This document shows, one piece after another, positions 26,101 through 57,451 of a DNA stretch of 64,000 nt. Under the pieces are notes generated by a model. It saw only the letters and a program-made list of their open reading frames with translations, had not been told where the DNA came from and did not search any database. The position numbers and the translations under genes were made by a program. Source of the DNA: Acorus gramineus (lineage: Eukaryota > Streptophyta > Magnoliopsida > Acorales > Acoraceae). The DNA is taken from positions 6,501,813 through 6,565,812 of the forward strand of contig CM060852.1 in assembly GCA_030737835.1 (NCBI GenBank), read 5' to 3'. How positions within the stretch are numbered: the stretch's first letter is position 1; the number at the start of each line of letters is the position of its first letter.

Positions 26101-27028
26101 GATTAATGTTTGTGTTTCTTGCTGCAGCTTTGTGTGTGGGGAACTGATGGATGGGACAAGCAAAAGAGCCGATTTTTGCAGATTCCATCTGGACGAGTAC
26201 CTTCTGCACTTTCAGATACGCGTGTGCAATTTCACCTGGACCAGACCCACTTCCTAGTGGTCCATGAAACTCAGATTGCCATTTATGAAACTGGGAAACT
26301 AGAATACGTGAAGCAGGTATTTTGCCAACCTCACATTATTTCTTTCAAAAGTTTAAGATGCTCTATTTTGAACCCTGTCTGCTGTGTTGCTTTTCAAGTG
26401 GATCCCTCGCGAATCATCTGCACCAATCTCCCATGCGACATTCTCATGCGACAGTCAGTTGGTGTTTGCTAGTTTTGTGGATGCAACTGTCTGCGTTTTC
26501 AATGCGGCAAACCTCAGACTACATTGCAGGATTAACCCAGCTTCATATCTTCCTGCCAACATCAGGTATGCTTGTTGACCCTAAATTTCGTGCATCAAGA
26601 TCCATTGTTAAATTAGACTTTGCTGGTGGGCTGGTAAATTTGCTCTTATTTCTGCTTTGATTTGTCCAGTGCTTATAGTGGCATATTTATAGGAATATCA
26701 TCTTTAACTCAGTTTGCTTCCTTAGTTAACTTCTATGGCTGAACATCATGCTCTAATATTTCACTTTGAGATGGATCAACACCATCATTTTGATTATTTC
26801 CGTGATGGATTCTGCAGCTCTACTGTTTATCCACTAGTGATTGCCACTCATCCATTTGAACCGAATCAGTTTGCCCTTGGACTAACCGACGGTGGAGTCC
26901 ACGTGTTGGAGCCACTAGAATCTGAAGGAAAATGGGGGGTGGCCCCACCTGCTGAGAATGGGTCAGCGAGCCGCATGTCCACGCCACCTCCAGGTGGAGC
27001 CTCAAGCTCTGATCAACCACAAAGATGA
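17118..27028 (+). CDS. TPL: TOPLESS co-repressor, copy 1 (25 coding exons)
   Basis: Groucho/Tup1-type transcriptional co-repressor that binds EAR-motif partners such as Aux/IAA and JAZ-linked adaptors in the nucleus and recruits histone deacetylases (family knowledge). Exons: 17118-17197, 17297-17476, 17561-17674, 17777-17935, 19603-19780, 19865-19988, 20117-20232, 20343-20508, 20624-20733, 20853-20922, 21010-21083, 21183-21278, 21356-21451, 21573-21700, 21824-22058, 22158-22322, 22399-22476, 22630-22776, 25113-25223, 25307-25486, 25674-25802, 25895-25990, 26128-26316, 26399-26565, 26818-27028; all GT-AG and in phase, 1,132 residues. LisH starts at MSSLSRELVFLILQFLDEEK, followed by CTLH (EVERYLSGFTKVDDNRYSMK) and the rest of the TPD helices to about residue 210, a proline-rich linker (PSPANNPLLG, HPRTPPNNN), then WD40 repeats from about residue 340. 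The GKWGVAPPAENGSAS tail places it in the TPL/TPR1 clade. Odd point: residue 308 is Ile in SKITRS where Arabidopsis TPL, from memory, has SKRTR. Confidence 0.95.
18430..19137 (+). mobile_element. LINE 3' fragment in TPL copy 1 intron 4
   Basis: Intron 4 (17936-19602) holds a 5'-truncated L1-type remnant. CLCNGENESVDHLFVICK is the zf-RVT zinc-binding motif at the LINE C-terminus, preceded by VWRRHGLGPNVTVFL-like sequence. A T-rich 3' untranslated stretch ends in an A-run near 19131. The same insert in copy 2 (about 48247-48957) shows it came before the duplication. Confidence 0.7.
23830..24420 (+). mobile_element. LINE 3' fragment in TPL copy 1 intron 18
   Basis: Intron 18 (22777-25112) contains another zf-RVT motif, CELCGLEEESRGHLFFRCPS followed by AKIWEKV, then a T-rich tail ending near the AATAAAAAAGAGG run. 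It is a degraded L1-type 3' end, different from the one in intron 4, and shared with copy 2 (about 53657-54250). The rest of the intron shows nothing recognisable. Confidence 0.7.
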
Positions 27029-27842
27029 TAAGGTCAAGCTGGTAGCATTATTCTTTCCTCAACTTTTACCCTTCCTTTAATGCAGGGGCTTTCTAATCCA
27101 GGTCTGTCTCCATTAAGTGACCTATCAAATGATTGAATCACCACAATGGGAACTACTCATTTTCTAGTCATAAGCCATGTTAAAGATATTTCAGTTTGAT
27201 GTGACATCCAGAGATTTCCATATTTGTTACGCGTGTATAATTTTGTTCTTATTGAGATTCTAGACTTAAATATTTCATCTCGTCGGCATTGCAGGTGGGG
27301 TTGTATTGACAACATATGATCTCCCCAGATAACAAAATGTAGGCACTTAACAATCTAGTAGAAATCTCTGTAGTCTTTTGCTGTTGTGTTGTCTTGCATC
27401 TGGCAAGTAACTTTGTTGAGTAGTTGTTTGAAGTGAATTTTATTGGAATGTTCAATATGTTTTTGTTTTGTTTTTATTTTATATAGAGCAAGGACATATG
27501 GAATTTTAGAGTGTAGTTAATGATTCCATATATTTGAACATTTCATGAATGTATGTGCTATTATATTATAATCACTGATCAATATAGTACTGTTATTGTA
27601 TACTTCACCCACCTATTATTCAACATTAGCATTTGTCATCAAACTGAGTTTTCTAACAGATGGAAGGCTGGCAATTGTGGAAGAAAAAAAAGCAAAGAGA
27701 CTATCACAAGCTTAATTGGTTAACTTAAATCAACTTGTGACCCCTAACCTGCTGCTCTTCCACTCTTCGTTTTTCTTTTGAACCAATGTAACTTTCTATC
27801 TTTAGTTATAAAATGGTCTATCTTCTCTCAAAAAAAAAAAAA
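27029..27842 (+). other. 3' UTR and 3' flank of TPL copy 1
   Basis: Non-coding sequence following the TGA. A 3'-UTR intron is plausible (donor CCAG|GTCTGTC near 27103, acceptor GCATTGCAG near 27295). It holds the empty target (CTGTTGTGTTGTCTTGC, about 27381-27397) where the Copia element sits in copy 2. It ends at an A-run that marks the duplication junction. Confidence 0.5.
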
Positions 27843-28729
27843 ACTTAATGTTGTATAAGTTCTAAACAGAATCCAAAGTTAACATACATAATCCATGGAT
27901 ATTAGTACAATCTCTTGCATGATACTTGATATATAAAAAAAGGATCTGTTGAGCAGCTGTTTTGATGTATATCTGATGTAAATTGAATTAGTTGTCAACT
28001 TTCAACTTCACATATTATTTACACATTGCTTGTATTAGCTGATTTGGAAAATCCGAGGTTTTCTTACAGTGTCGATCTATTGCAGACATCAATAGTTATC
28101 CTTAGAAGCAATTTCTTCTTGTAAAGTGCTGATCCATTTCAGACATCAATAATGCTAATTTATATTTTATTGCAGATTTCATGGATGGCTGTGTTCTCCC
28201 ACCTGGATTGTATATTTTCCCCTTGTGAAGTAAAGTAGAAAGAAAAGAAAAAGAAGAAAGATTGGTGTTTGTTTTAAAGGTGTTTGGTTTGAAGGTGTGT
28301 TTTTTGTCTTTGTTTCCCATACGACTATACGAGGCCTCAGATTCAATGTACTACAATTTTTTTTTTTTTTTTTGTGTACAGATAAAAGCTTCCCCATCAT
28401 TCAAGTAGAGATTGGTTTCGTTTCTTACCAAAAAAAAAAAAAAAAAGTAGAGATTGGTTGTGTTGATTTTTTATTTTATGTTGGGTAAAATGTGATACAC
28501 TGCAATTGATTGTAATGTTGTATTTGAAATGTTTGTGATATCGATTGTTTGTTTCATAATTACAAGTGGTGGTTTCTCTAAGATGGTGCTGTTGCATCAT
28601 TCAGATGCTACGTTATTTAATGAAGTAATCTAACACAGTGCATATTCTACCATGTCAATAAATAAAAATATTCAATTATTCGAGTATATATGCTTCAATT
28701 TTTTTATATATATAAAATATGTATTTCGT

Positions 28730-32849: not shown

Positions 32850-32932
32850 TATGTATTCGGCAGTAACCGTCTCCAATTACTACAATCATTGACACTGGTG
32901 TAGTCAAACACACAATTATAACTCATTCCAGA

Positions 32933-33285
32933 ACTTACAGTTTTTTTCTTGTTCCATCGACAAGGGCATTGTCTAACAAATATAATTATGTAGACACTTC
33001 ATGTGTCTAATGCATTCCAGAACCTACAGGTTTTTTTCTGTTCCCATCGACAGAGACATTGTCTAAGAAATATAATTATATAGACACCCCATATGTCTAA
33101 CTAATTCCAGAATTTACAAGTTTTTTTTATGTTCCCATTGAGAGGGACATCGTCTAGGAAATCTAATTATGTAGATAATGCATGTGTCTAACTCATTCCA
33201 GAACATATGCATTTTTTTCTGTTTCCATTGACAAGAACATTGTCTAGGAAATATAATTATGTAGACACCCCATGTATGTAACCAA
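32933..33285 (+). repeat. Tandem array A, about 4 units of roughly 90 bp
   Basis: Units start CATTCCAGAACCTACAGG, run through a T-run, CATCGACA, ATTGTCTAGGAAATATAATT and end with TAGACACCCCATGTGTCTA. The last segment is a hairpin (TAGACAC/GTGTCTA arms). Unit starts lie near 32933, 33013, 33103 and 33193. Confidence 0.8.
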
Positions 33286-34470
33286 AGCTAAGTGTGTGGA
33301 TCTTACTATGGACCTTACCTATATATTACATACAAAATCTCCCTTAGAGAATATTATTGTTTGCATGTTGAACATACTCATGATTCATGAGATGAATTAG
33401 TATACTGACATTGATCTAAAATTGTAAAATGGTTCAATACATATTGTTGAGAACTAAGTTTAAACAATAATGTAATACTAATTTATTCATGCTCTAATCA
33501 ATCTAGTAAAGATAATTTAGAGAAAGTTAGGGTATTTTTTTAGAAAAATGAATTGTGTTGGATGAATTTGAATGGTTTAGGATTGAAAGATAGCGTTGTG
33601 AATGCATTTTAGTAACTTGTTGAATTAAATACTATGTGTTAGTCAAATTTTCATTGTTTGTATGTTGGTGGCATTGATGAATCTCTTCTTTTTTTTCCCC
33701 TTAGAGAAGAGTATTATTGGCATGACGAGCCAGTACCTACACCTTGGGAGGTGGTTTAGGGGTACATGGCATGGTTTCAGATGATGAACCACAATTTGAG
33801 ACAGGGGACAACTATCAAGGCTACGTAGAGAGTAGTTGGATACATGATACATTATTTGCAAGATGGAACACCACTTCATGACCCAAAATCTATGTGATGT
33901 ATGTCAAAGCAAATGCACAATTGACATGGATGAATTAGTTGGCTCATGTTAGAATAAAATTTTCAATTTTTTTTGTGTTATAGATTTCAGTGCCCACAAA
34001 CAATTGGTGTTAAATCATCTTTTATGTGTTTGTAGATTTAACTTGTATTATGTGTATTGAAACATAAGTTTAAATGAAGCTGTTTAAGTTTCAACACATG
34101 ATTGTATTATGATTTGATTGTGTTTGTAGAATCTCATAATACTTTAGGGGTGAATATGTTAATTAATGTGAATGTGTTTTGGGGAATGTGAATGTCTTAT
34201 TGAATGTGAATGTTGAATGTGTTTGTAAATGTTTTATTGGATAAGTAATTCTTGTTGAATTTGTGATTTTTTTCCTTATGTTTCATGAGGAAACTTGATT
34301 CATGCAAGAATGGACAAACAAACTGTCTAATAATACACATATACTCGACACACGATGTATCTAACCTTTAGAAAAAACATTAAAACTTTCATACATTTAT
34401 GTGTTCGACAGTAACAGTCTCCAATTACTACAATCATTGACATTGGTGTAGTTAAACACACAACTATAAC

Positions 34471-35025
34471 TCATTCCAGAACCTACAGGGTTTTTTCTGT
34501 TTCCATCGACATGGATATTGTCTAGAAAATATAATTATGTAGACACTCCATTCGTTTAACTCATTCAAAAACCTACATGTTTTTTTCCTGTTTCCATCGA
34601 CGGGGTCATTGTCTAGGAAATATAATTATGTAGACATCTCATGTGTCTAACGCATTCCAGAACCTACGTGATTGTTTTTTCTATGTCTATATACATAGGA
34701 ATTGTCTAATAAATATAATTATATAGACACCCTATGTGTCTAACTCATTCCAGAACCTAAGGTTTTTTTTTCTGTTTTCATCGACATGGCCATTGTCTAG
34801 GTAATATAATTATGTAGACATCCTATGTGTCTAACTCATTCCAGAACCTACATGATTTTTTTTTCGTGCTTATCGACATAGGAACTGTCTAAAAAATATA
34901 ATTATGTAGACACCCTATGTGTCTAACTCATTCTAAAACCTATATGTTTTTTTTTCCTATTTTCATCGACAAGGCGATTGTCTAGGAAATATAATTACAT
35001 AGACATCCCATGTGTCAAACTTATG
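34471..35025 (+). repeat. Tandem array B, about 6 units of roughly 91 bp
   Basis: Same unit and orientation as array A, with starts near 34471, 34561, 34652, 34745, 34836 and 34928. A shared leader precedes both arrays (30530-30695 plus 32855-32930 for A; 34243-34470 for B), so leader and array form an internal direct duplication of the host element. Confidence 0.8.
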
Positions 35026-36602
35026 CCAATTACTTAGGGTGGTGGGATTGATCTAACCAATTACTTGGGGGTGGTGAGAAGGGGAGGGTGGTGCCCTTAA
35101 TGCATTTTTGGGAGTTATGCACGGATGGCAATATTGTAAATAAAGGGTGGTGTTTAATATAAATGGGGTGGTGGAAATATCCGCCCTCAAAAAATATACT
35201 ATTATATCCGGGGCAGCGCTATGACCTCAACATATTTTCATTTTTTTTAAAATAGTAAACATCATCTAATGATGTATATGCTTTAATAAAAAGTGCATAT
35301 CCTTCTATTTCGAGTTAAATGAACCAATTTTTAGGAAGTGTAAGAAATTTTTTAATGAGGTATATAAATCATCTAACTAGGTATATATTTTACTGAATCT
35401 GTAATGAGGTATACAGGTCTGTATTTTGGACTGAGAAAAAAATTGAGTGTAACAAACTAGCAGCACTCAAAAAAAAAAAAAAAAACGTTTTAAGTAAAAA
35501 CGGTAAAAAGAAGCCCAGCCCGGTCCAATGTTTATTGATTGTATCATTGACCCCATTAAAAACCCAAAAGAAAAAAAATTGTGGACCCAAAACCTATCCA
35601 ATTTCAGTCTACATGAGTTTTGAATTTTTAAAAAATAACATATCTCATCTAATTAGATACAGACTTTTATAAAAAAGTAAAGCATATACTCTAATGAATT
35701 GCATGGATACATTTATAAAAAAATATAAAATATTTCTATTGAAACATATATCTCATTAATGTGAGTATATACTCCTTTAATTTTCTATCGATGCATATAA
35801 GACTAGAATTGTGGCTGAAAAAAAATCGTGTGTAATAGCACTATGAAAAAAATCATCGGACTAGCTGATTAGGACCCTTATCTTCCATCAAAGTCGGGGG
35901 ACGCGAGGATCACCAGTGGACGGACATATGAATGCGCCGATTGCTACTAGTTACGTTGCCAATCTCCTCTTTCTACTATGCTTTAGGTTTCTAATCATGG
36001 ATTTGTTTTTGTTTTTTTTCTTTCACCATTTTTTATGTTAATTTGAATCTCTCCCATCACTACATAATCGTGTATGTATAATGAACAAAACTCATCAACA
36101 TTACACCCCTCTTTCCTTCACCTATTTGTATATTAGATGCCTCTTTTTTTTGTAATATGTTTATAAAAAATTTATTTTACAGATTGTACCATTTGTTTAA
36201 TGGATAAATTTTATTTTATAGACATATTCAATAATGTTGATAATGAAATTATCATGCAACAATTTTAAAATATGAAATCTTGTTGAGGATAATTGTAAAA
36301 GTTTATATATTGAAAATCATTGATCTCATATATTTGATGGTTTATTTTTTATTAATGTAAATTGTTGTTCTATTTTCAAAAAAAAAAAATTATGTTTTGA
36401 TAAATATGTAACAAAAGTAGGTTTTTTAAATTTTTTAATAAATTTATTTATTTTTTAATAACCCCATCTATAAAATTTTCTATAACACTGATTATTTCTT
36501 AGTATATATTTCATTTTGTATAACAATTTTTACTCCAATAGAAAAATATATAATTGAAAAGTGCGTACTCATGTTACTTGAATGCAGCAGTCACAAAAAA
36601 GG

Positions 36603-37104: not shown

Positions 37105-37111
37105 AAAAAAA

Positions 37112-37334
37112 ACTCATGTTTTATTTGTCCCCAATGGTCATAGCACAATGGTTCAGGGCTTACCTGTGTTAAGGGTAAGTCTTAGGTTTGAGTCTTGGCG
37201 CTGACTTACCCACCTGTTTGTTGGTGATTATTCGAAAGAATTTTTCGTGGGACCGGGGCAAACAGGTAAAGGTAGTTTTCCCAACTCGACCATAAGGTCG
37301 GCCACGGGGGGTCCATTTGATATAAAAAAAAAAA
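37112..37334 (+). mobile_element. tRNA-derived SINE, unit 2
   Basis: Orthologue of 12020-12245: CATAGCACAATGGTTCAGGG A-box region, GGTTTGAGTCTTGG B-box region, terminal A-run, and downstream repeat CAGTCACAAAAAAA at 37335-37348. Its upstream flank has been split off by the fold-back MITE. Confidence 0.7.
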
Positions 37335-39195
37335 CAGTCACAAAAAAATAAAAAAAAGTAGTTTATTCAAATAAATGTTATACGAAAGATAAGAGACTTA
37401 TTCGTATCTTAACTTGGACAAACAACAAAAGTGGAATAAGGTAAGAGAATTGATACACTCAGTTTGTTTTACAATTGAGACTACAGTCCCATACACTATG
37501 ATAGCACAGTATATACTACATTATCATAAAGGGTTCTATCATAGTGTATGGTAGAAAAAAAAAGTCATTTTTTCAATGTAAAAAAATATATACATTATTA
37601 TATCTTAGTATATACTTCATTTCGTATAACATCATATATTTCATTAAGAGAGTACAATTTAAAAGAAAAAAGAAAAATGGTGCGGACTGTGGTTGGTGGT
37701 ACACAATGGGCTGGACATATCATTTTCTATAAAGTAAAGGATGATGTTATGTACAGCCCCTTTTCAACCCATATTCCAGTCCACGTATGTTTTAATTTTT
37801 TTTAAAAATAGTATAGATTCTAATGAGTTACATGATTTTATAAAAAAATTGAATCACATACTCTAATAATTACGTACATTGATACATTTATAGAAAATGT
37901 AAAAAATTTATATCAAAACATATACCTCATTAAATGTGAGTATATAACGCCAATAAAATATATGAGATTGAAATTGAAGCTGAAAAAGGACAATGTATAA
38001 CAACACTTGTAAGGCTAGTTTGGCGAGGGGTTAAGTTGTTCTAATTTGAGGAGATAAAATATCCATCAATTTTATTCATATTTATATTTGTTAAAAATGA
38101 GATAAAAAATAGATAAATATCACAGCCTTTGAGTGAAACAAAATATTTTTATTTTTATTTTAAAATTATAGCAATTGTCTAGAATTTATCCCATTAATTT
38201 TGCATCTGGTTTTGGGGTTGAAACACTACTCTTTGTTGCTAATCTTCGTGCACTTGATGTTGTTCATATTTTACAGTAATACATCATCTCATTTAATATA
38301 CAACAGCAAATATAGGTGTTTGTGTCGCATTTCATTAACATCTAAATCGGTGAGTGGAAAGCAACACTCCTATACCTATGGCTTTGCCCCCCTAATAATC
38401 ATAACCGTCGCCACGTACGCAATCATTAAGAAGTACAAAGTTGGTGGGAGGGACACTTTCCCATGAAAACATTCATTCAACCATCCAACAGCAATCCCTA
38501 TAATTGATTTAATTTTTTCTTGAAGCATGAAGTAAATAATATAGAAAGTGAAATATAAATTTAGATAAATAGGTACATATTATTTTTAAAAAAGAATCAT
38601 TTTTTTTTAATTTTTATGCACTGAATTATTAGAGTATATATTGCGTTAAAACAATATGCATTCTACAAGTAAAGTGTATAGGCGGTTGGAGGTGTAAAAC
38701 AAATTATGTACAGTTTTACCAACGAAGAAAAATTGTGTTTAGCTCTTTGGACTAGATACTGTGAATTTTTTATCTATAGTTTATTTTGGGCTTTATTGGC
38801 TGATTGATTTCACTTTGCGCTAAAAAATATTATATAAAGTCATGGAAATTTTTGGCTATATGGGATGTGTAAGTTATTGACAATATCTTTTAGGGAATTT
38901 TGCATCTATACCCCTGGAAAATGCCTATTTTTGCGTTATACCCCCATAAAAAAGCTAATTTCATCTATACCCCTATAAACTTCTTTTGTGTTTCAACTAT
39001 GCCCCTCCGTCTGTGTTCGTTACCGAGACTGAATCAACCATGGTTACCGACCTAACTCTACTGCATGAAATATCTGTTTTACCCCTGTTGTTAACTCAAC
39101 CCTAAATCCCCAAAATTACTCTCACTCCCTCTCATACCTTCTCCTTCCACCGAAAAACCCTCCACGAAAACCCTAACCCAAAAATCTGCAAAACC

Positions 39196-39275
39196 CCCTT
39201 CCAAACCTGAAAACCCCCCTTCTAAACCTGAAATCCCCTCTTCCAAACCTGAAATCCCCTCTTCCAAACCTTAAA
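39196..39275 (+). repeat. Short tandem repeat inside the MULE 5' leader
   Basis: Three to four copies of a roughly 20-bp unit of type TTCCAAACCTGAAATCCCCTC between the left TIR and the transposase ATG. It may hold sub-terminal binding sites or simply be leader sequence. Confidence 0.65.
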
Positions 39276-39301
39276 ACTTCAAAAACCCACGTATTACGGC
39301 A

Positions 39302-42300
39302 ATGTGGAGGCATAAACACTCGTTGAGGAGTGTAGTGAGGACTCCTGATGGGCGTTTGGTTCCTCGTGGTCCAGCTAGTCGTTTGCCGAGGACGAGCATG
39401 GAAGATCCTATCATGCTGGACGCAGACATTGTAAGTAAATCCTCTACATTTAGCCTTCATGTGGGTTTGGTGTGAGGTTTAGAGTTTAGGTTATTTGTTT
39501 GGAATTTGTCAATGTGGATATTGTTGAATTTGTTAATATATGCTTAGTTTTACATTGTTTTGTATGTTAATTGTTATGCATTGATTTTCTGTGTACATTC
39601 TGTATGCTTAGTGATAATGTTTATGTAAAATGTTATTCATTGGTTTGTGTGTGTAGATTGTGTAGGTTTAGTTATATGGTGTATGTAAAATATTATTCAT
39701 TGATGTGTGTAGATTATGCAGGCTAAGTTATACTTTGTGGGTAAATTGTAATGCATTAATGTGTGTGTAGATTATGCATATTTAGTTATACTTTGTGGGT
39801 AAATTGTAATGCATTAATATTTGTGTGGATTATGTAGCATTGCTATGTTTAAGAAGATGTTATGGTGTTTTGTATTGCAGTTAGAAGAGGACAGCCATGT
39901 TGATGTAATGTTTAGATATGGAGGGTTTTGGAAGATTGATAAACCCTCTGGAAAAAGAACATATAGGTTAGGTAGACAGAAAAAAGTCAAGATAGATAAG
40001 TATTGCTATAACATGGATGATATACTTGGGGATGTTGAAAAGTTCATGCAGTCTGGTCCACATGATCATATGATCTTGTCATACAAGTTCCCAGATGTAG
40101 ATCAATATGCATTACTTGATTCTGATGCTGATTTGATGAGAATGTTTATTATTCATAAAAAAAGTAAAAAAATAGATGTTTACATAACATTGGAGAAGAA
40201 TGTGGGAGGTTATGATGTTTTACCTACACCAGAGGAGAATGAAGGACATAAAAGAGTGGCAGAGGATGGTTCAGATAGTAGTGATCATGGGGATGACAGT
40301 GACAGTAGCAGGGGAGATTGTAATCCCAATGTGTTTGAGGATGCAGTATTGGAGGATGCAATGGCTGATGCTGATGATGAGCCATTGCAGGGGGCAGATG
40401 AAATAGAAGTTAGTGAGGGGGGTGAGATGCAGAGGGAGAAGGGAAAAGAAATTCAAAATGAAATGGGTAATAGGCATGCAGAGATCAGGGGAGACAGACA
40501 CACAGATCTTGGGGATGTTGGGCAGACAGATCTTGGGGATGATAGAGAGACAGAAGTATTGGTAGATGTAGAAGATGGCCATGGGAATGTGTGCAGTGAG
40601 TCAAGCTATCATGAATTGTATAGCTCTGACACTGCACAGTTTGTGACAGAAAATGATGTTTCAGCTGATCACCATGATGTAGAGGATCCCATCATGAATG
40701 TAGGGATCACATTCCACAGCATAGGGGCTTTTAGGGATGCACTGAGGCAGCATGCTATTAGGAAGGAGTTTTCATTAAAATATTTGAGAAGTGAGCCATC
40801 CAGAGTGACAGCCAAGTGTGCAGAAAATGACTGTCCTTGGAGGATTCATGCATCTGTTTTGCATGACAAGGTGACTTTTCAGATCAAAACCCTAAACCCC
40901 ACACACACATGTTCCTCTATGAACAGAAAGGGTACTAGTATGGCATCAGCTGAGTGGATTTCAAATAAAATAGTTGACTGGCTAAGGCATGAGGGTGATA
41001 TTCCCATTTCACAAATTAAGAAAAGGTTGCAGAGAACTTATGGACTTGATAATGTCCCGTATCATAGGTATTGGAGGGGAAAAGATAAAGGAAATTTTAA
41101 GATTTGGGGATCCTATGAAGATCTATATGCATTGGTGCCTTCACTGAGAGCTGAATTGTTGAAACGAAACGAGGGCAGTGTTGTTCATTACACAGTTGAT
41201 GATATAGATCATTCTTTTGAGAGGTTCTTTGTATGCTTCAAGGCTTGTAGCTCAGGGTTCATTAGTGGTTGCAGGCCATTCATAGGCCTTGATGGATGTC
41301 ATTTAAAGAGTAAGTACTTGGGTTCACTGTTGGCAGCAACTGCAATGGATGGGAACAATGGATTGTTTCCTGTGGCTTATGCAATTGTGGAGGGGGAGAA
41401 TAGTGGTAGCTGGCAGTGGTTCTTGGAGTACCTCCATGAGGCTATTGGACATGCAGAAGGCCTTGTATTTATGTCTGATAGATGCAAAGGCCTTGATGAT
41501 GCAGTGAAGGTTGTATTCCCAAGGGCAGAACATAGAGCATGCATGAGACATTTATACAAAAATTTTAAAAGAAAATATCCTGGAGAATACTTGGAGAGAT
41601 TGGTTTGGTCAGTTGCTAGGGCATATACACCACAGTGGCATGCAGAGCATATGAGACAAATTGAGGCAGTTTCAAAAGATGCATACCATTATTTGCTGTC
41701 TGAAAAGGATCATGCATGGAGCAGGGCAATGTTTGGAGAAACTGCAAGATGCCACTACCTCACCAACAATATGTCAGAGTCATTCAATTCTTTTGTTGGA
41801 GATGCAAGATTCAAGCCAATAATTTATTGCATTGATGCTATCAGACAGAAGTTAATGAAAACAATGCATACTAGGAGACTGAAAGCTCAAAAATGGACAG
41901 GTTGGTTGTGTTAAATCTTATTAACATTCTTTAATTGTTAACTGTGTAACTTTTTCATGAATAAGTGTTATTTGTTACTCATTTGGACAGGGACTATTGT
42001 TCCAGAAGTTCAAAAACAATTGAATGAGCTAAGCAAGGGTAATGGCATGTATGATGTCCATAGATCCACTGATGTGAGGGCTGAGGTTGATGGACCTGAA
42101 GGGAGGTTTGATGTGAGGCTGAATGAGAGAAAATGCAGCTGCAGGCAGTGGCAGATAACAGGCATACCTTGCAAGCATGCTGCTGCAGTTATTTCAACAA
42201 TCAGAGGTGTGAAATGGGAAGATTTTGTGGACATCCATTACACAATTGACAGGTACACATAGGATCACACATGTGAATAGAAAATATTCCTTTAGGTGTA

Positions 42301-43098
42301 TGATTCTAATAAACATTTCATTTGTATTGACAGGTACAAGGCAGCTTATGCCTTAGACATTTCACCATTACCAGACAAATCAATGTGGGAGATAGTTGAT
42401 CTGACATACACTGTTATACCACCAAAATGCACAAGACCACCTGGTAGGCCAAAAAAGAAAAGGATTAGGCCTTTTGATGAAGAGACCAGTGGAAGCTCAA
42501 CAGTGAAGAAGGTTCATAAGTGCAGAAGGTGTGGACAAGTTGGTCATCATCAGAGTACATGTAAAAATCCAATCACAACCACTGAAGAACAATCTGCTGA
42601 AGCCTCAAGGTAGAAAGACTAGTTATACATGTTTATACTTCTGATAAAGAGACCACTTTACACTACTAATGTGAACTTTGATTTTACTTATGCAGTTCTC
42701 AAAAAAGACCACCAGGAAGGCCAGCAAAGAGGCATGTCAGAGGACCTCTTTCAGTTGGTAGAGGGATTTCAATCAGAGGTGAGAAATCTTACATTATTTA
42801 TTATGTGTCTAAAATTTACTCAAAAGTATTCACTACTAATATGGCATACTCATGTTTTATATGCTCAGGTCATGGAAGAGGATCAGTTGCAGTTCAAAAT
42901 GAACCAGGACCATCGACAACAAATTTAGATTCAATTACAGGAGGTCAAAGTAACACTCGTAGAGGCTTATATGCACCATCTAATTATTCAACCAGAGGAA
43001 CTAGTAGATGGTCACTGGGATTGAGGGGAAAGACACAGATTCCAAGAAGAGGAGGATCAGGCAGTGAGTGGTTCAGTAGGGGTGGGACATCTATGTAA
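39302..43098 (+). CDS. MURA-type Mutator transposase (six exons, 999 residues)
   Basis: Proposed exons 39302-39430, 39881-41900, 41991-42252, 42334-42609, 42696-42778 and 42869-43098 total 3,000 nt with matching phases and GT-AG borders. Order of parts: a PB1-like N-terminal region (HVDVMFRYGGFWKIDKPSGK, about residues 48-160); an acidic Asp/Glu-rich spacer (about 175-285); the Mutator DNA-binding domain (VGITFHSIGAFRDALRQHA to TLNPTHTCSS); the MULE DDE domain with candidate catalytic D514 (FIGLDGCH), D576 (MSDRCKG), the C-x-x-H pair in ACMRHL, and E676 (NNMSESFN); a SWIM finger (CSCRQWQITGIPCKHA); a CCHC knuckle (CRRCGQVGHHQSTC); and a Gly/Arg/Ser tail. It would cut and rejoin the element's TIRs in the nucleus. 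The start was chosen as the first ATG after the left TIR that joins in phase to exon 2; the short first exon is the least certain part. Confidence 0.88.
39597..39838 (+). repeat. Diverged tandem repeats in transposase intron 1
   Basis: Four to five imperfect units of about 57-60 bp of type GTGTGTAGATTATGCAGG, TTTAGTTATACTTTGTGGG, TAAATTGTAATGCATTAAT fill the 3' half of intron 1 (39431-39880). Non-coding. Confidence 0.7.
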
Positions 43099-43269
43099 AA
43101 GAAACAATGTCTTTGTTAGTTATGTGTGTTTAATGGACCTGAAGGTCTGTATGTGTGTGTAAACAAAACAAGCTGTTGTATTCAGTGTTTATTATGTTTG
43201 TTTGAACAAAAGGCTGTTTTTATGTGATGTTATGGATCAATTATTATCTGATGCTCTGTTTTGATGTGT

Positions 43270-43476
43270 TGTGTTGCCATATATGAGTGAAGTAAATGTC
43301 CAGATATCTATTTTAATGTGTTGCCATATATGAATGAAGTGAATGTCCAGATATCTGTTGCCATATATGAATGAAGTGAATGTCCAGATATCTGTTTTAA
43401 TGTGTTGCCATATATGAATGAAGTGAATGTCCATATATTTGTTGCCATATATGTTGAAAGTTAATGTCCAGATGTT
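43270..43476 (+). repeat. Tandem array between the two convergent MULE genes
   Basis: Five units beginning TTGCCATATATGAATGAAG and running through GAATGTCCAGATATCTG; unit lengths alternate between about 47 and 37 bp, the longer ones with an extra TTTTAATGTG. It lies just past the transposase stop, where the two genes' 3' ends meet. Confidence 0.85.
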
Positions 43477-43788
43477 AACTTTTCTAAAATGTGACAGTTC
43501 AAAAGAGCTGATGTTGCAGAACCTATTCACTGTCTAAGCAATTCATCATTATTAGGGGTTTGCATCTTAGACTCCCATGTCTAACACCATATGTAGCAGT
43601 TGTTAAGACGCCAGTATGGATTCTCATACTTTATCAAAACAAAGAACAGCCAGACCTCAAAGAAATATCAAAGCAATATTCACACACAAAATCAGCCATA
43701 TATTATAGAACATGGAAATTTACATACATATACATGCTTATTGCATGATAAACAAAATATTCATCTCATTTCAAAATAGGTGACTCGA

Positions 43789-44263
43789 CTACTTCACAAA
43801 TAACACTACAATCAGTAAGAGCCCTATAATGAATAGGCACAACCAAATCTGTCTACGCATTTCATCAATCTTCTTTTCCATCATGTTTCGCATTACATCG
43901 AACTTCTCATCCATTTTTTCTTCAAATTTATTGATTTGTTGTTTCAACGCACATGTTCCTGGATCAAATTCATCAACCCAGCAAAAGAAATTGCAATCTT
44001 CTGAGGTCTGCAACATGTAAATAAATCAGATTAAAATGAAACTCGCTACGAACCCTAGTCAAACACATTCAGACAGCATAAACATTGCACCCAAATTAAA
44101 CACAAACCCACAGAGAACCTACCCTCCATTGTCGACACCTGTAGAATTTTCTCCCTTTGCTAACTTCTCTATTAGATGTCAACACTATACTGGATGACCC
44201 GCATCGACAATTGGGGTTACGAATGGCACGGATAGAAGAAGATGATTGAGCAGCTTCACTCAT
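43789..44263 (-). CDS. MULE-borne GRF zinc finger / coiled-coil / membrane-anchor protein
   Basis: Two minus-strand exons, 44263-44123 and 44007-43789, join in phase (TGG AGG|ACC TCA) across a GT-AG intron and give 119 residues. Residues about 18-60 form a GRF-type zinc finger: NPNCRCGSSS, then GRKFYRCRQWRTSEDCNFFC, then WVDE, with C19, C21, C43 and C52 as likely ligands. An amphipathic charged helix follows (KQQINKFEEKMDEKFDVMRN, then KKIDEMRRQ), likely a coiled coil. The last 20 residues are a hydrophobic tail (IWLCLFIIGLLLIVVLFVK), a probable tail anchor. Small plant proteins of this build (At4g04775-like, from memory) are common and uncharacterised. Transcription would start near the right TIR, converging on the transposase, the layout of mudrA/mudrB in maize MuDR, although this protein is not recognisably MURB. 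Role in transposition is unknown. Confidence 0.75.
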
Positions 44264-44328
44264 CTTTGTTGGACTGGAGGTTGAAGATGACTTATACAGG
44301 CTGTTGCTTCGGGGTGTTAGATGGCATC

Positions 44329-44431
44329 CGTTGGAGCAGTGGTGAATGTTGGAGCAGCGAAGAAATCCGTTGGAGCAGCGAAGAAAGCCGTTGGAGCAGC
44401 GAAGAAAGCCGTTGGAGCAATGGTGAACGTT
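44329..44431. repeat. 21-bp tandem repeat near the right TIR of the MULE
   Basis: About five copies of CGTTGGAGCAGCGAAGAAAGC with small changes lie between the GRF gene's start codon and the right TIR, in that gene's presumed 5' leader. Confidence 0.8.
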
Positions 44432-44787
44432 GTCTGGAGGTTGAAGAAGGGTTATATAGGCATCAGGGGTATGGATGCAATTTCTTAAAGCCCCAACGGT
44501 CTTAAAGGGCAATTTAGACATTTTTCTACGACTTAACGGCGTTAGACGAATATTCTCAGAAATTTTCACTCCCATCTGACAGAACTTAACCGGAGGGGCA
44601 TAGTTGAAACACAAAAGAAGTTTCTAGGGGTATAGATGAAATTAGCTTTTTTATGGGGGTATAACGCAAAAATAGGCATTTTCCAGGGGTATAGATGCAA
44701 AATTCCCTATCTTTTATTATCATATATATTCTTTAAAAAAAAAAAACTAAAATTGCGTATCATCCAAGAGAGTATGCTGCTCTCTAT

Positions 44788-45530: not shown

Positions 45531-46139
45531 CTCTCTATTTGGTTGTTTCCAGTCAAATCAAACAGCAAAAAATGGAATAAAATGTCATTGTACCCTTTAT
45601 TCCACCATTATCCAGGGATGAAAATGTATTGAGTTATATTGATAATACATCCTGATCTGATTTGAGTTTCATAATTTTTAAATTCATATTGACACGTTGC
45701 AATGTTCAAGTCCCATTTAGGTTTATCATATTTGATGGATATACCTAAACTCATTTCAAGATGTGTAGGATATATTATATTCACAGACAATGTATAAGGG
45801 CTTAATTCTCATCAATTAATGTATCCTTTGAAAAAAATAGAGATAAGAAATATTCTCGTTTCCGCTATCAAAGTGAGAGAGAGAGAGAGAGGGGGGGGGG
45901 GGGAGAGAGGGGAAGACGTTGATAATCTCACTTCCATTGACCAGTAACCACCCATAGCAGATCACACCGTTCACTAAATTACTTCACAAAGAATCAAAGA
46001 TGAAGTGTACGACTGAAGGCAAGGGTGACAATATCAATCACTTCTTTATCAAAACAAAATCATCACGAATCAGACGGCCAGGATACCCTGAATTTATCGT
46101 GACGCGAGATCCGACCGTTCAGTGGCATATCACGTAAAA

Positions 46140-46426
46140 AAGGCTGTCCGTTTTCTCGAACGCAATTACGTGACGTCAGAAAATCGTCCCTGTCCAAACA
46201 AAAACAAAAAAAGAACAGCTGTCGGTGCTCGAGATTCCCATCTGCAAAGTCTTAGCCGGCTCGTGCGGGCCCCACCCAAACTCACTCCTCTACTTATCAT
46301 ATCGGAAAACCTGATTTGCTGATCACCCTTACTGTGCTTATCGTCTCTTCGATAAGCAGAGCGTCCTATCATCTGCTACAATGTCTGAACTCCTTATAAA
46401 TGCTGCTTTCGTCTCTCAGCTTTTCT

Positions 46427-46459
<33 letters not shown>

Positions 46460-46460
46460 C
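46140..46460 (+). promoter_or_regulatory. TPL copy 2 core promoter: bZIP site, GATA inverted repeat, TATA box
   Basis: TTACGTGACGTCAG at about 46166-46179 is unchanged from copy 1. GTGCTTATCG (46334-46343) and CGATAAGCAG (46350-46359) keep the inverted repeat with one terminal mismatch. TTATAAAT is at 46394-46401, followed by a longer CT microsatellite than in copy 1. Homology with copy 1 extends upstream only to about 45850. Confidence 0.65.
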
Positions 46461-46932
46461 AAGGCCGAGATTTGTTTTTATTAATAATAAAAATCTGTTT
46501 TTTTTAAGAGACGGTGCAGATCGACCGATCGTCCTCGAATTGATGATACCCATCTTTCCGTTTCTGAAGGTTTTCGTGCTTCGCTGGTTGGAAAACGTGC
46601 TCTGCTTCGGGCTTGTTCAGGTAATCTCACTCTCCTCCCCTTTTTGAGAATCTTTTCCTCTTCGAAGAAGTCTGTCTTTTGCTTTTGCTTTTGCTTTTGC
46701 CTTCCGTGAGACCTCGGAAACCCCCCCCCCCCCCTCTTTCGAAGCCTCAACTTCCAAACCCTAGGTCCCTAGCCAAAAACGCCTCGGATTTTGGTTTCGA
46801 TCCTTTCAAAAGGAGGTCTCTTTTTGGCGATTCGTTTCGATTGATTGCTTGTTCTCGCGATGTTGGAGGGCGCGGAGTCCGAGATGGGACGTTGACGAGG
46901 TTTGTTGAGGCGGTGTATACGGCGGGCGCACC

Positions 46933-49900
46933 ATGTCTTCTCTCAGTAGGGAACTGGTGTTCTTGATTCTGCAGTTCCTCGATGAAGAGAAGTTTAAGGA
47001 GACGGTCCACAAGTAAGTTTTTGATTTTCAAAAAAAAAAAAAAAAAAAATTTGGGTGCAAAATTGGGATTTGTTGAGCTTCAATTTTGATGTGTGTGTGA
47101 GGTGTCCCTTTATAGGCTGGAGCAGGAGTCGGGATTCTACTTTAACATGAAGTATTTCGAAGATGAGGTCCACAATGGGAACTGGGATGAGGTCGAACGG
47201 TACCTTTCAGGCTTCACGAAGGTTGATGACAACCGCTATTCGATGAAGATCTTCTTTGAGATCCGGAAGCAGAAGTATCTTGAAGCCTTGGACAAGTGGG
47301 GCTTTACATCTTTTCCTTTCAAAGCTTTTGGTGTTCCTAGCCCCTTTTGTTAAAATGATGGTGTGTTCTTTTTTTGTAGGCATGACCGGGGTAAGGGTGT
47401 GGAGATCCTTGTGAAGGATTTGAAAGTGTTTTCGTCATTCAATGAGGAGCTGTTCAAGGAAATCACACAGCTTTTGACATTGGAGAATTTTAGGTGTGTT
47501 AATGAGTTGTTATTTCTTTTTTTGTCCGTTCATTATTATTTTTTTCTTGGTGGCTTGACCAAGGGGAGATTGTTTTTTATATGGTTTCCTAGGGAGAATG
47601 AACAGTTGTCCAAGTATGGGGATACAAAGTCGGCAAGAGCAATAATGTTGGTTGAGCTCAAGAAGCTGATTGAAGCGAACCCTCTTTTCCGTGACAAGTT
47701 GCAGTTCCCAAGCCTCAAAAGTTCTAGGTTACGGACCCTTATCAATCAAAGGTATTGTTTATTTTTTTTGAGGTCGAGAATTTAGTACACAACTTTTTGC
47801 GTATTGAAATCATTGTGACCAGTTAAAGTCTTCATGTAGGCAGTCCATTCTGTGTGCATAAAGTCAAGTCAATCATATGAAACAATAGCTCGGACCATTC
47901 CTTCATATTTTGGTTAAAAAAATTGTATTTTCCAACTATGTGGTTCCACTGGCGGATGATGAACTCCCACTGCTTATACTCTTGTGCTGCTTACATTAGC
48001 CTAGTTGAGATAACTCCCATCTTTTTCTCACTTTGTAGCCCCTTAAGATCTGACAACATGAATCAAGTTCAAAATTATATCACTACTAAATGCAATGGGC
48101 ATATGACCACTTTGTACCTTATAGCACAAATAATACCACGAGTAGTGCCTCTACTTGTATTTGTCATGAAATAATTTCCAGATAATTTTAATTTATGAAA
48201 AAAGCAATTCTTTTGTACTGTCTACTTGAATTCTATGCTAAGGAGATTAGTTCCTAGGTGCCAGAAAAGAATATTTGGAGGTGGGACAAATTGGTGAGTT
48301 CCTGGTGCATTCTCTGGAGGCTTGTTAGTGGTGGCGGCAATAAATGTGATCGTATGAAACTAGTTTGGCGGAGACATGGTCTCGGACCCAATGTTACCGT
48401 CTTTCTTTCTATATAGTTTGAGCGTTAGTTCAATTATTGACAACTTACCTAACAAAAAGGCTTGTTTTTTGGCCAGAGATTAGTGTATCTCTTTGCTTGT
48501 GTAACGGGGAAAATGAATCCGTTGGCCACCTCTTTGTTATCTGCATGTCTTTGTGTGTGTTTGAGAGAATGCATAATATTTGAGAGGGCCCAAGCTCCAT
48601 GGAAGGACCCAACACTGGTTTTATGTTTGTTCATGGGGTGGAATCCAATTCGATCAATTGTAATGACATATTAGCGTAGCATATAGGGATCGAAATGAAT
48701 ACATATGTTATTCTGATATTCGTATCTCCATGTATTTGAAAACAATATGGATATTGGAACTGATAAAATATATTTATATCTGTATTTGTTTTTTGGAGAA
48801 AAAAAAAAAACAGATGACAGTACTGAGTCCTAGACCCCAGTATCCTTTATTTTTGGGCCATATCTTTTTTGTTTATTGTTTCTTGATCTTGTAATTGGGC
48901 GTTTTCTTCTCTTTGATAAAATTGGGATAGGATGCCTACCGTTTTTAACCAAAAAAAGGTTGGAACAATGAATTATATAGCCTTTTGGCTGTTTCACATA
49001 GTCGAATATAGGAGAAACTGCTTTCTTTAGAAAGCACTTTGTGTTATAATCAGCCACAATATTTGCTTCAGAAAAAAAGCAGCCACAATATGAATTTTGG
49101 TTGTTTCGAGGGTGGGTTGAAGCTACAAGTATGTGTAGTGCCTGATATAGACTCGAGAAACCAGAGTTACCTTTGGTCTGGGCACCACTTGTGATTGCTT
49201 TAGCATGAATATACATGGTGGAAAGAATCTTTTCTATGTCATCGCATGCTTATAGTTATTATTAACTTATTATCTATAGCTTGAACAAATTTGTAAGGGT
49301 GTTTAACTAGTAATCAAAATGTTTTTTTGGTTGACAAAAAAATAACTTGTTTGTATTGGAATATTTCATCCAGAATATTTTGAAGAATGTCTAAATGTGT
49401 ATCCTGTTTCGTTCAATTGGCAGCTTAAATTGGCAGCACCAGCTATGTAAAAACCCTCGACCTAACCCAGATATAAAAACCCTCTTCATTGATCATTCAT
49501 GTGGTCAACCGAATGGTGCTCGAGCTCCGTCGCCTGCAAACAATCCCCTACTTGGATCAATGACAAAGCCCGGTGGGTTTCCTCCAATAGGATTGCATGC
49601 GGTAACTGAGCCAACCCTTCATCGATCCAATTGATTTTATTTCACCAATGCTCATGGGCTGATTGTTTGGATTTATTTTCTGCAGCCTTTTCAGTCTGCA
49701 CCAGCTCCTGCCCCAACTCCTCTGGCTGGATGGATGGCTAATCCATCTACTATAACTCATCCATCAGTTTCTGGAGGACCTATAGGACTTGGTGTTCCTA
49801 CGAATCCAAGTACAAGTTTATGTTAATTTATAGTGCTCCCAAAACTTTTGTTCTATATTGGTGGTATCTTAAGTTGTCGGATATGTTGTTTGATTTTATT

Positions 49901-52900
49901 TTTTTTTGTTTTTTTTTTTAACTTTTGACTGGTTGCTCTCTTATAGCTGCAATTTTGAAGAATCCTAGGACTCCTCCAAATAATAATTCTGCTGTGGATT
50001 ACCCATTGGCAGATTATGATCATGTATCCAAAAGAACAAGATCAATGGGTATTACTGACGAGGTACACCCTTTGTCATTCATCCACATTTGTGTTCTCAT
50101 TTTTTTTTAGTCTTTTATTCTCAATGTCAACTTGTCATTGGCTTGTTCTGATATCTGGAGATCGTTTTGTAGGTGAATTTGCCTGTAAATATATTGCCAG
50201 TAACTTATACTGGTCAGAACCATACTCAGGCTATGTATTCACTGGATGACTTGCCAAAGACTGTTGCACGAACTTTGAGTCAAGGGTCTACTCCCATGAG
50301 CATGGATTTTCACCCTGTCCAGCAGACTGTACTTCTTGGTCAGAATGCAATCCTAATATTTCATATATTTCTGAGTTCTTGGCATTGGTCTGTTGTTGTC
50401 TTGTTTATATTATTTGGTTGATGTTTCGCATATGATTATCCATGGTTCTGTAGTTGGTACAAATGTGGGAGATGTTGGATTATGGGAAGTTGGTTCACGG
50501 GAGAGATTAGTTTTAAGAAATTTCAAGGTTTGGGACCTTGGAGCATGCTCCATGCCTCTTCAGGTATATTCGGTAACTTTTCCAGACCTCAGTGGTTTTT
50601 AATTTGATGTAACAAGTGATTTCAATGCCAAGAACTAAGTCAAACCGGAGCTGGAAGCTAACTTGATTCCAATTGAAACCAGACATCTCTAGTTAAAGAA
50701 CCAGGCGTATCAGTTAATCGTGTGGTGTGGAGCCCTGATGGAACCTTGTTCGGTATGTTAAGAGATAATAAGTTTTACTTTACCTAAAACAAATACAGTT
50801 CATCTGTGCATCATTGCTCAATGACTTCTTGTTTTATAGGAGTTGCATATTCAAGGCACATTGTGCAAATATGTTCTTACCATGGTGCTGACGACATTAG
50901 GCACCACGTGGAGGTGTCGCTACATACTCAAATCTTTGTATTTGATTTGCTTCTGTTTACATACTAATTTTCTATTACTTTACACTTTTTTGCTAATTTT
51001 GGCATCCTTTAGATTGATGCTCATGCTGGTGGTGTCAATGATATTGCATTTTCACTCCCCAACAAGCAATTATGTGTTGTGACCTGTGGAGATGACAAGA
51101 CCATCAAGGTTTGTCTTGTATTTTCTGATGTCATTAATTATGAGGCATTATTCTTGAATCTGTTGTAAAATGTGAACAACATTAGGTGTGGGATGCAACT
51201 ACTGGTGCCAAACAATATACATTTGAAGGTCATGAGGCTCCCGTTTACTCTGTTTGTCCCCATTACAAGGAAAATATTCAGGTATGATGCTCTTTGATTA
51301 GCCAGACTTCATCGCTGATTTGTGGTTGATATTTTAGGTTCACGTATTTGTTGGCTAAATGATGGCTTCCTTCCCTTAATATGCTTCTTTTTTTTTCTCC
51401 AGTTCATTTTTTCTACAGCATTAGATGGAAAAATAAAGGCATGGTTGTATGACAATCTGGGTTCCCGAGTTGATTATGATGCCCCAGGTCGCTGGTGCAC
51501 TACCATGGCTTATAGTGCTGATGGTTCCAGGTTAGGAAATGATCAATCTCGTTTTACAAAGTCATATGAAGTTAAGTAGAGCTACTTATGGTGTACTGAA
51601 CCTTAGGCTATTTAGTACTTTAACATCTTATGCTTTTCTTAAATTCTATATAGGCTGTTTTCTTGCGGTACCAGCAAGGAAGGAGAATCGTTCATCGTTG
51701 AATGGAACGAAAGTGAAGGAGCTGTGAAGAGAACCTATCATGGTTTCCGGAAACGGTCTCTGGGTGTTGTACAATTTGATACAACAAGGAACCGGTTTTT
51801 GGCCACTGGTGATGAATTTTTGATCAAATTTTGGGATATGGATAATGTCAATCTTTTAACTACTATTGATGCCGATGGCGGTTTGCCAGTGAGTTCAGAC
51901 TGATCTCTTTCACAAATAATGTTCATACATACACTAAAAGATATCATTGTGCTTAACATTGTACATCATCACCTTTGTGATTTGTAGGCAAGCCCGAGGA
52001 TTCGCTTTAACAAGGAGGGAACACTGCTGGCTGTATCTGCGAATGATAACATGATCAAAATCTTGGCAAATGCTGATGGCCTTCGGTCATTGCGCACACT
52101 TGAAAACCGGGGCTTTGATGCTTCTAGGGCTGCATCTGAAACTGTGACAAAGGTACTCTTTAGATTAGTCAAATAGCTACTTATTCACAGATATAGATGA
52201 TTTCACCTAATGCTCTTATATCATGCAGCCTATAATCAATCCAATGACAACTGTTGCTGCTGCAACCAGTTCTGGAATCACACCATCAGTTTCTATGCCT
52301 GGAATGGTGTGTAGAACTTTATTTTCTATTTTTCTTCTCGGTGCATGATATATATTTATCAATATTCTTCATCCTCCTCATGTCCTCATCCAATTATATT
52401 AAAGACAATTTCATATTGAAATTGCTTCTTTTTTTCTTTTTTTTTGCATTATGTGATAGAATGGAGACACCAGAAACATGGGGGATGTTAAACCTAGAAT
52501 AACTGAAGAGTCCTTGGACAAGTCAAAAATATGGAAGCTTACTGAAATCAATGAACCAGGACAATTACGATCCTTGAGGCTCTTGGATAATATAAGAACA
52601 AGCAAGGTAATCCTTCATTCATATTTTGTTTGCCAGCCTCATTTTACATGCACATGGTGTTCTTTTTTAAGGTTTGTGATATAAATATATAGTGCATGCA
52701 TTATCATTACAACCCTGACGACTTTAGATGTGCTTATTTCTACTACTTAGCAAATCCTCCTTTGGACCAGCATGGTGTGTTCTTCCATGAAACTGCATGG
52801 ATCTTGTAAAGTAGCCGCTTATTTAACTGCCATGGTTCTAGACCTTTGCTTAGCAGGACTTGTAATAGTTGATGTCTATAGGTCATTTTAATGCCTAAGA

Positions 52901-55900
52901 TCCAATTATAATGGTACATGATTTATTTTGTCCATTTGATTTATGATGGTTTAATTAACTATTTATAAAGCTGCAGTTTCCCCCTCAATTTGGTTTCCAG
53001 CATGCAGCTGTTATTTTTCAAATGATCTTTCATTGCTATTTATACACCTTCTGTAAGGGCAAGTGTTAAAAAAAATTATTTAATGCTAGCTGAAGATACG
53101 TGGAAATGCATGTGCACATGGGAATACAACATATGATGCGGGTGGAGAGGCAGAGCCGAAGAAGCTGCTTCCTATAATATTGTCTTTTTTACCTTATAAC
53201 ATGTGGCTGTTGCATGAGAAGCTATCTACTATCTCTTTCATTACTTATTCTCGGAATTATCTATATTTTAAATATAACCATTTTTTTTTTAACTTCCTAA
53301 AATGCTCTCAATGCAGTATATGATGGACAGTCAGTCACACTTGGTCCCCTTATCACATTAAACAGTGGTATAGAATATAGATGACCTGCAACAATAAAAT
53401 ATATACTAGTATCTTAATGTTGCATGTCTGTGGTATAAAGATAGTATCTAAAATTAAATGAAGAGACCAAAGTTTCTGAACTGGTTGAATGATCAAGTTG
53501 TATTTCAATCAGGTTGATTTAAGTTGGTGCCCACATCATGATCTTAGGATGTTGTTTGACCTGAGTAAGAAATCATGCTTGGTAGCACATCTGCAGTTTT
53601 CTTTCTTTATTTATTTTATTTTATTTGGGGGTGGGTGTCAGGATCTTTTATAAAACGAAAGAAAAAAATATTCACCTTGTACTGGTTTCTCTGTGAAGAC
53701 CCTTTATACAAAGCTCAACAGGAACCCCCTTCAAGACCTTACTACCACCTGGTTTGAGTGGCTTATTTGAGGTGACCTCGTGCCTTTGAAGATCCAGTGT
53801 TTCATGTGCCTTCTGATGCTTGACAAGGTTCATACAAATGGTAAAAGATTGAAATGAGCTCAAGTTGGTCATGAGACTTGTGAGCTTTGTGGATTGGAAG
53901 AGGAGTCAAGGGGACACCTTTTCTTTAGGTGCCCATCTAGTGCGAAGATTTGGGAAAAGGTGGGTTTGTCCCGGTGCTCTTTGAATGAGCTTGAAGGTAT
54001 GTGACAGTGGTTCTAGAAGAGGCTTAAGTGAGGTGACCGAAGCAACCTCACTGAATGGAATTTTTTGGTGTGGGAGGTGACGCTCCGGGAATTTGTTGGA
54101 ATGGGATTCTCCCTAAGTGTTGATGTTCTTCCTTCTTTACTCTTCCTTTTTCTTTTAATACTTTGTTCGAAGATCCATCATGTCCTTTGTTCAGGGCATC
54201 TTTTATTAATAAGATTCCTCCTCTCTTTTTTCAATAAAAAAGAGGAAAATTTTATTGTCCTGCATTTAAACTTGCTTGTTTTGAATTATGCGCTCAAGCA
54301 ATCTGGGATAATAACCATGCATGCCTTTGCCAAATTTTTATACTTGAAGATGTCATTAAGATGTTTTCAGTGACCAAAACTTGGTACATTTCTTAACTGC
54401 ACCAGGTAGAATTTGACATAATGGGTAAAGTCCAAAAGGGAACTATGCCACTTGATACATGGATACAGCTCTCTAGATTGAACTAAAATATAGGAGCCCA
54501 TAATATTTTTTTAGTTTTGTGCACAAGAGGGGTTGAGGTTGGGTGCTCATGTTTGATGTTGAAGTTGTCTTTGATGAAAACAATTTCAAAATCGACATCA
54601 ACATCAATACAATCTGCTTTTCCACAGCATAGAATTGGCTTATTGCATCATTATTTGAGTGTGTACCTTTTCCTTAATAGCTATTCTCTTCGATGTCTTC
54701 CCTAGGTCTATGTATGCAATTAACCTTAATCTGTGACAATAGTTTGTAGTCCTTTTTTCCTCCTTTGTTCCATGGCATATCCTGATTTCCATCATACATT
54801 ATCATTTCCTTCATCTATATTTACATCCTCATTCCTATGGCACATTGCTTTTGCCTTATTTTGAATTGTCTGCTCTTCTCCATTAAAAATTTCCTTATAA
54901 AGCTGGAATTTATAGTATCTTTTATCTTTTGCTTGCAGATTTCAAGGCTAATTTATACCAATTCTGGCGTTGCCATTTTAGCATTGGCATCCAATGCTAT
55001 CCATTATCTCTGGAAATGGTCAAGAAGTGAACGTAATGCAAGTGGGAAGGTAGAAAATCTGTAAATCAGTACGTCATATTGCAATTATTTACTGAGTTGC
55101 TAGAGTATTCTCATTGTTCCATGAAATTGTAGGCAACAGCTAGTGTCGCTCCTCAATTATGGCAACCACCAAGTGGCATTTTGATGACTAATGACATAAT
55201 TGACACAAACTCTGAAGAAGCTGTACCCTGCTTTGCTTTGTCGAAAAATGATTCTTATGTGATGTCAGCATCAGGAGGGAAGATTTCCCTTTTCAACATG
55301 ATGACATTTAAGGTAACATCCTGTTATCTTGACCCCGTTGTACAAAATTTTGTATTTTTAATTTTGGAGGTAAAGCATCCATATCCCCCTTTATGTACAA
55401 AATAAGGCATTTATGGTAACATGCAATGATCACATAATTCTTTAATCATAACTTTATATATTCCTATTGATCATTATGAGTTTAATTGGACAATTACAGA
55501 CAATGACAACTTTCATGCCTCCACCACCCGCAGCAACTTTTCTAGCATTCCATCCTCAAGATAACAATATAATTGCCATAGGAATGGATGACTCCACGAT
55601 TCAGATATATAATGTGCGAGTAGATGAGGTAAAATCCTGGATACTTAACTACTTTTCTGTAGCATACATTTGTTGGTTCATAAATAGCACTGATGAAGTA
55701 TATGTATTGTTTTCATTCAGGTCAAAAGCAAGCTTAAAGGCCACTCAAAAAGAATTACTGGCCTTGCCTTTTCGAACACATTAAATGTACTAGTCTCATC
55801 GGGAGCTGATGCTCAGGTAACTAGTAACTTGTGCGCTTTCACCCACCATTTCTTCTAAGCGTTACTGTTGATCATCCTTCACAAGTTATGTCCAATTAAG

Positions 55901-56871: not shown

Positions 56872-57233
56872 TAAGGTCAAGCTGGTAGCATTATTCTTTC
56901 CTCAACTTTTGCCCTTTCTTTAATGCATGGGCTTTCTAATCCAGGTCTGTCTCCATTAAGTGACCTATCAAATGATTGAATCACCACAATGGGAACTACT
57001 CATTTTCTAGTCATAAGCCATGTTAAAGATATTTCAGTTTGATGTGACATCCACAGATTTCCATATTTGTTACGCGTGTATAATTTTGTTCTTATTGAGA
57101 TTCTAGACTTAAATATTTCATCTCGTCGGCATTGCAGGTGGGGTTGTATTGACAACATATGATCTCCCCAGATAACAAAATGTAGGCACTTAACAATCTA
57201 GTAGAAATCTCTGTAGTCTTTTGCTGTTGTGTT

Positions 57234-57420: not shown

Positions 57421-57451
<31 letters not shown>

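Follow-up and report, generated by a model that had tools for sequence, protein, structure and literature searches.

Several Mutator-like elements (MULEs) carry genes in addition to the one for the transposase, among them mudrB, mutB, vanB and vanC (PMC6446971). The roles of the proteins they encode are largely open: insertion is described as requiring mudrB, VANC is credited with anti-silencing and the function of ORFR, from the Abermu elements, is stated as unknown (PMC6446971, PMC9168764). What does the second gene of a MULE contribute? A stretch of 64,000 nucleotides from Acorus gramineus (GCA_030737835.1, contig CM060852.1, positions 6,501,813 to 6,565,812; hereafter the window) poses this question directly, as it holds a MULE at 38893-44707 whose second protein has an identifiable domain with ligands of a known class, as well as a clear membrane anchor. 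The answer developed here, which in our judgement is evenly poised between right and wrong, is that this protein serves the element as an accessory factor, anchored in a membrane by its tail and binding nucleic acid.

A two-gene Mutator-like element

The element is 5815 bp long, and its ends agree to the base with those of the original prediction, in which a model working from the DNA letters had described a two-gene MULE at this position. It starts with GGGAATTTTGCATC (also given as GGGAATTTTGCATCTATACCC) and its end is the reverse complement of that start. The 9-mers on the two flanks (38884-38892 and 44708-44716) are identical, both reading TATCTTTTA, and form a perfect 9-bp target-site duplication (TSD), a length within the 8-11 bp characteristic of MULEs (PMC6446971). 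The terminal inverted repeats (TIRs) extend over 117 bp (38893-39009 on the plus strand and 44591-44707 on the minus strand) and, aligned left against right, are 99.1% identical with a single mismatch. Together with a MULE transposase domain, the size of the TSD and the long TIRs identify the element as a MULE, and a second gene converging from the opposite TIR gives it the MuDR-type arrangement. Because the terminal repeats are near-identical the insertion is probably young. By its sequence, this appears to be a recently inserted, structurally complete and autonomous-looking two-gene MULE.

The transposase gene, of the MURA type, lies on the plus strand at 39302-43098 and is predicted to have six exons (39302-39430, 39881-41900, 41991-42252, 42334-42609, 42696-42778 and 42869-43098), the first ending at a GT donor and the last containing the stop codon. 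All the introns are GT-AG, and the spliced frame encodes 999 amino acids without an internal stop; the splice sites of both genes in the element were picked by eye and by reading frame, and are thus predictions. Exon 2 encodes the MuDR DNA-binding domain (PF03108, E 3e-21) and the MULE transposase domain (PF10551, E 2.5e-21), exon 3 a SWIM zinc finger (PF04434, E 2.2e-10) and exon 4 a CCHC-like zinc knuckle that falls below the Pfam threshold of 20.8 bits (PF00098, E 0.057, 14 bits); Transposase_mut is matched at E 6.3e-10. The earlier description of a full transposase is supported. The acidic motifs GLDGCHLK, MSDRCKGLDDAV and NNMSESFN, at residues 512, 574 and 672, presumably contain the DDE residues of MURA. 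When a 673-residue piece of the protein was compared with solved structures there was one match up to E 1, namely 6xg8, 'Mutator family transposase' (E 1.9e-4). A 428-residue piece modelled poorly in AlphaFold (mean pLDDT 38.7), and no use is made of the result.

The start codons of the transposase gene and the second gene lie 409 and 444 bp, respectively, inside their ends of the element, and the two stop codons are separated by 690 bp that hold a minisatellite (43270-43473). Both leaders contain 21-bp tandem repeats (39182-39277, plus strand, and 44326-44419, minus strand), the repeat units of the two sides being unlike. The strong match between the TIRs stops at 117 bp, and no similarity of the leaders was detected beyond it, with 189 of 200 shuffles reaching the best alignment score. 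Within the leader of the second gene, 44464-44480 is a 94% copy of 17 bases from near the TIR tip, and it is possible that this copy is an additional transposase-binding site.

A small protein with a GRF finger and a hydrophobic C-terminus

The second gene is on the minus strand and has two exons, 44123-44263 (residues 1-47) and 43789-44007 (residues 48-119 and the stop codon), separated by a 115-bp GT-AG intron (44008-44122; 45% T). The predicted splice that joins 44123 to 44007 leaves a frame of 119 amino acids without an internal stop, in agreement with the original proposal. Residues 17-60 (43969-44215, split by the intron, with the junction after residue 47) match the GRF zinc finger family PF06839 at E 7.2e-10 (39.3 bits; cut-off 25.9). 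A match of this strength across the splice junction is not due to chance. Altogether there are seven Pfam matches up to E 1, the other six of them under their cut-offs (the best being DUF7201 (coiled-coil region) at 0.0015), and NCBIfam gave two matches only, both far under cut-off. When scored by the codons of the transposase gene, the frame of the GRF protein ranks first among the six (-0.065, the other five ranging from -0.244 to -0.354) but lies below the window background, and so supports the gene weakly.

The closest solved structures by sequence are those of NEIL3 and ZCCHC4. NEIL3 is matched at whole-sequence E values of 4e-5 and 1.7e-4, each of which is a sum over two individually weak stretches, while the ZCCHC4 match (E 2.9e-4) is an ungapped alignment. 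The GRF domain of ZCCHC4 has a CHCC zinc cluster, and its residues F61, R68, F76 and W78 have counterparts in APE2 that mediate binding to single-stranded DNA (ssDNA) (PMC6834594). When the residues named in that paper are placed by hand on the ungapped alignment, the four fall on F40, R47, F55 and W57 of the element's protein, all identical, and the zinc set falls on the putative ligands C19, C21, C43 and C52. Because both the zinc and the contact residues align with those of ZCCHC4, binding of nucleic acid by the finger is supported by homology, and the earlier suggestion of ssDNA binding, by likeness to GRF fingers in other proteins, gains strength from the alignment. The resemblance to NEIL3, APE2 and ZCCHC4 lies in these zinc and contact residues; in those proteins, however, the finger is part of a larger enzyme, whereas here it belongs to a small, membrane-anchored protein.

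At the other end of the protein, residues 101-118 (43795-43848, minus strand) are the only run of at least 12 residues without charged residues, asparagine, glutamine or histidine, and precede a single C-terminal lysine. Averaged over 19 residues, Kyte-Doolittle hydropathy peaks at 2.98, at residues 100-118. As judged from these features, the protein resembles tail-anchored proteins in form, with one hydrophobic segment at its extreme C-terminus, and the C-terminal anchor described previously is upheld. The segment lies within a predicted helix: AlphaFold, given the exon-2 half as a single sequence (75 residues including three read from the intron; pTM 0.37), returned a single 56-residue helix spanning residues 19-74 of the piece (63-118 in the whole protein); from piece residue 21 onward, pLDDT averaged over ten residues was 70-94. 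The charged coiled coil that was also proposed is unproven: although the helix is predicted, the heptad pattern in its charge-rich part (residues 68-100) is not above that of shuffled sequences, 929 of 5000 of which equal it.

Second genes of MULEs and a possible role of the GRF protein

Maize MuDR likewise has two oppositely transcribed genes between its TIRs, a MURA-type transposase and a 9-bp TSD. It differs in its second protein, which in the Acorus element bears a membrane anchor and a GRF finger; MURB is not known to have a GRF domain. The convergent layout for which the element had been likened to MuDR is real, but a second gene of another kind in that position is not new. The Abermu elements also have a 9-bp TSD (in barley, with TIRs of 138-145 bp) and a convergent gene, ORFR, which lies on the opposite strand between the transposase gene and the 3' TIR in 13 type II plants and is unrelated to mudrB (PMC9168764). 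Ka/Ks ratios of 0.39-0.56 in three comparisons were taken as purifying selection on ORFR, capture is regarded as possible, and since a rice Abermu without ORFR is still polymorphic the gene may be unimportant (PMC9168764). The accessible text names no domain in ORFR.

A GRF-domain gene inside a MULE has been described as well. The rice Pack-MULE TNR12/MuDR carries one, GLU-U7, that was interpreted as a captured gene fragment, with no transposase or membrane segment mentioned in the part of the paper available (PMC3503983). Pack-MULEs have lost the transposase gene and carry fragments of host genes (PMC6446971); with its complete transposase frame, the Acorus element is not one of them. The VANDAL elements, such as Hiun, are also MULEs with extra genes (vanB and vanC), one of which is anti-silencing, but their TIRs are absent or short and degenerate (PMC6446971), unlike the 117-bp TIRs found here. 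As both ORFR and the rice GRF Pack-MULE are already published, neither half of the arrangement is wholly new. Among the papers listed by the literature searches, which omit most subscription journals, preprints and Repbase, the accessible parts describe no MULE that has both a transposase and an intact gene for a GRF protein with a membrane anchor, nor was a link between GRF genes and MULEs found in those of PMC2528002 (on grapevine transposons), PMC11099236 and PMC11734081.

If the GRF protein is an accessory protein of the element, its last 18 or so hydrophobic residues, with one residue after them, would insert post-translationally into the endoplasmic reticulum or nuclear membrane. The finger would remain in the cytosol or nucleoplasm and bind single-stranded nucleic acid, which might be strand ends that become exposed as the element excises and integrates, or RNA transcribed from the element itself. 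In this way the protein could assist the completion of insertion, a role claimed for MURB, or protect the element against silencing. The roles first suggested for it, guiding insertion, sequestering the transposase or countering silencing, are similarly conditional, and the original interpretation as a whole is partly supported. In favour of an accessory role are the intact spliced frame within a young-looking element, the convergent position like that of the second genes of MuDR and Abermu, the GRF match with its retained zinc and contact residues, the hydrophobic C-terminus with its long predicted helix, and the recurrence of second genes in MULEs (PMC6446971, PMC9168764).

Several observations weigh against such a role. 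The gene is known from one copy only; in the window, tblastn gave only weak matches (E 1.8 or more) to a second copy of either gene. Pattern searches for relatives of the GRF protein gave 6 matches in viral_contigs and 46 in genome_contigs, none of which was confirmed, and in viral_contigs there was no match to the 673-residue transposase piece and no occurrence of a 24-base TIR pattern; as neither is a plant collection, these negatives carry little weight. The codon score of the GRF frame falls below the window background, and the heptad signal, as described above, is no better than that of shuffles. Among the structural matches, chain 5u6z, which we take to be APE2-type, scores E 0.14, no better than an unrelated chain (0.13), and thus is not evidence by itself. 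Moreover, in a young insertion even a useless gene would stay open for some time, and the GRF gene in the rice Pack-MULE was seen as captured (PMC3503983).

That precedent leads to the principal alternative, which we regard as tenable, if somewhat less than an even prospect: an intact host GRF/membrane-anchor gene was taken up together with its intron (transduplication) and travels as a passenger without a part in transposition. MULEs are known to capture host genes (PMC6446971, PMC9168764), the rice GRF gene was interpreted in just this way, and the end of the TIR match at 117 bp between otherwise dissimilar leaders fits such an origin. On the other hand, the frame is complete and convergent, has its own leader, occupies the position of mudrB and ORFR, and sits in an element that retains its transposase. 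We consider it improbable that the protein acts like VANC of the VANDAL elements, as an anti-silencing factor working on DNA methylation or element RNA. A MULE second gene with such a role exists (PMC6446971), and the tandem repeats of the leaders and the partial TIR-tip copy at 44464-44480 would be candidate binding sites, but a membrane anchor is ill-suited to a chromatin factor and the repeat units are unlike on the two sides. That the frames are open by chance, or belong to a decaying pseudogene, seems very improbable: only a single copy has been seen and the codon score is under background, yet the GRF match at E 7.2e-10 runs across a GT-AG junction and the aligned zinc and contact residues are retained.

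Annotations of GRF/membrane-anchor genes are widespread in plants, where small GRF proteins appear under names such as 'uncharacterized protein At4g04775-like'; two papers that use this name give no domains for the protein in their accessible text. The broader proposal, that much of this family is, or derives from, a MULE-encoded, membrane-tethered single-strand-binding accessory factor that travels together with the transposase and aids insertion or the evasion of silencing, is one that we find rather doubtful on present evidence. Were it true, transposons may be where this little-understood class of plant proteins belongs, and the plant annotations would have an origin.

The duplicated surroundings of the element

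The window contains a tandem segmental duplication with outer limits at about 9170-27858 and 27859-62946. Its two copies are 98.1% identical over 11,337 aligned bases between 16098-27390 and 45908-57233; the left part is only 89-93% identical, with 90% between 12014-13787 and 37105-38892, immediately before the MULE. The first copy is without the MULE and its flanks there carry the matching target sequence, which indicates that the MULE inserted after the duplication; its precise loss from the first copy is the less likely alternative. At the same spot the first copy has a different, MULE-like insertion of 1.3 kb (13789-15096), whose 9-bp duplication, ATCTTTTAT, is offset by one base. The terminal repeats of this insertion are imperfect, aligning over bases 6-69 with a local score of 44, against 37 or less in 300 shuffles, and its longest blastn match to the MULE does not exceed 28 bases. 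Two dissimilar insertions thus occupy one spot, which suggests an insertion hotspot at the shared target.

The second copy of the duplication alone contains a retrotransposon at 57234-62483, Copia-type by eye, with a 1350-residue open frame, long terminal repeats of 98.7% identity and a 5-bp duplication, GTGTT, of which the empty site in the first copy has one. A TOPLESS/TPR1-like gene fragment lies in the duplication at 17535-17966 (Pfam E 5.6e-29) and, like the type of the element, points to a plant as host. ARAGORN found no tRNA in the window. Elsewhere, a diverged tandem repeat of 90/91 bp forms two arrays, at 32919-33282 and 34467-35028, and a reverse-transcriptase-like frame (RVT_3, E 4.5e-12) is found on the minus strand at 2503-2889.

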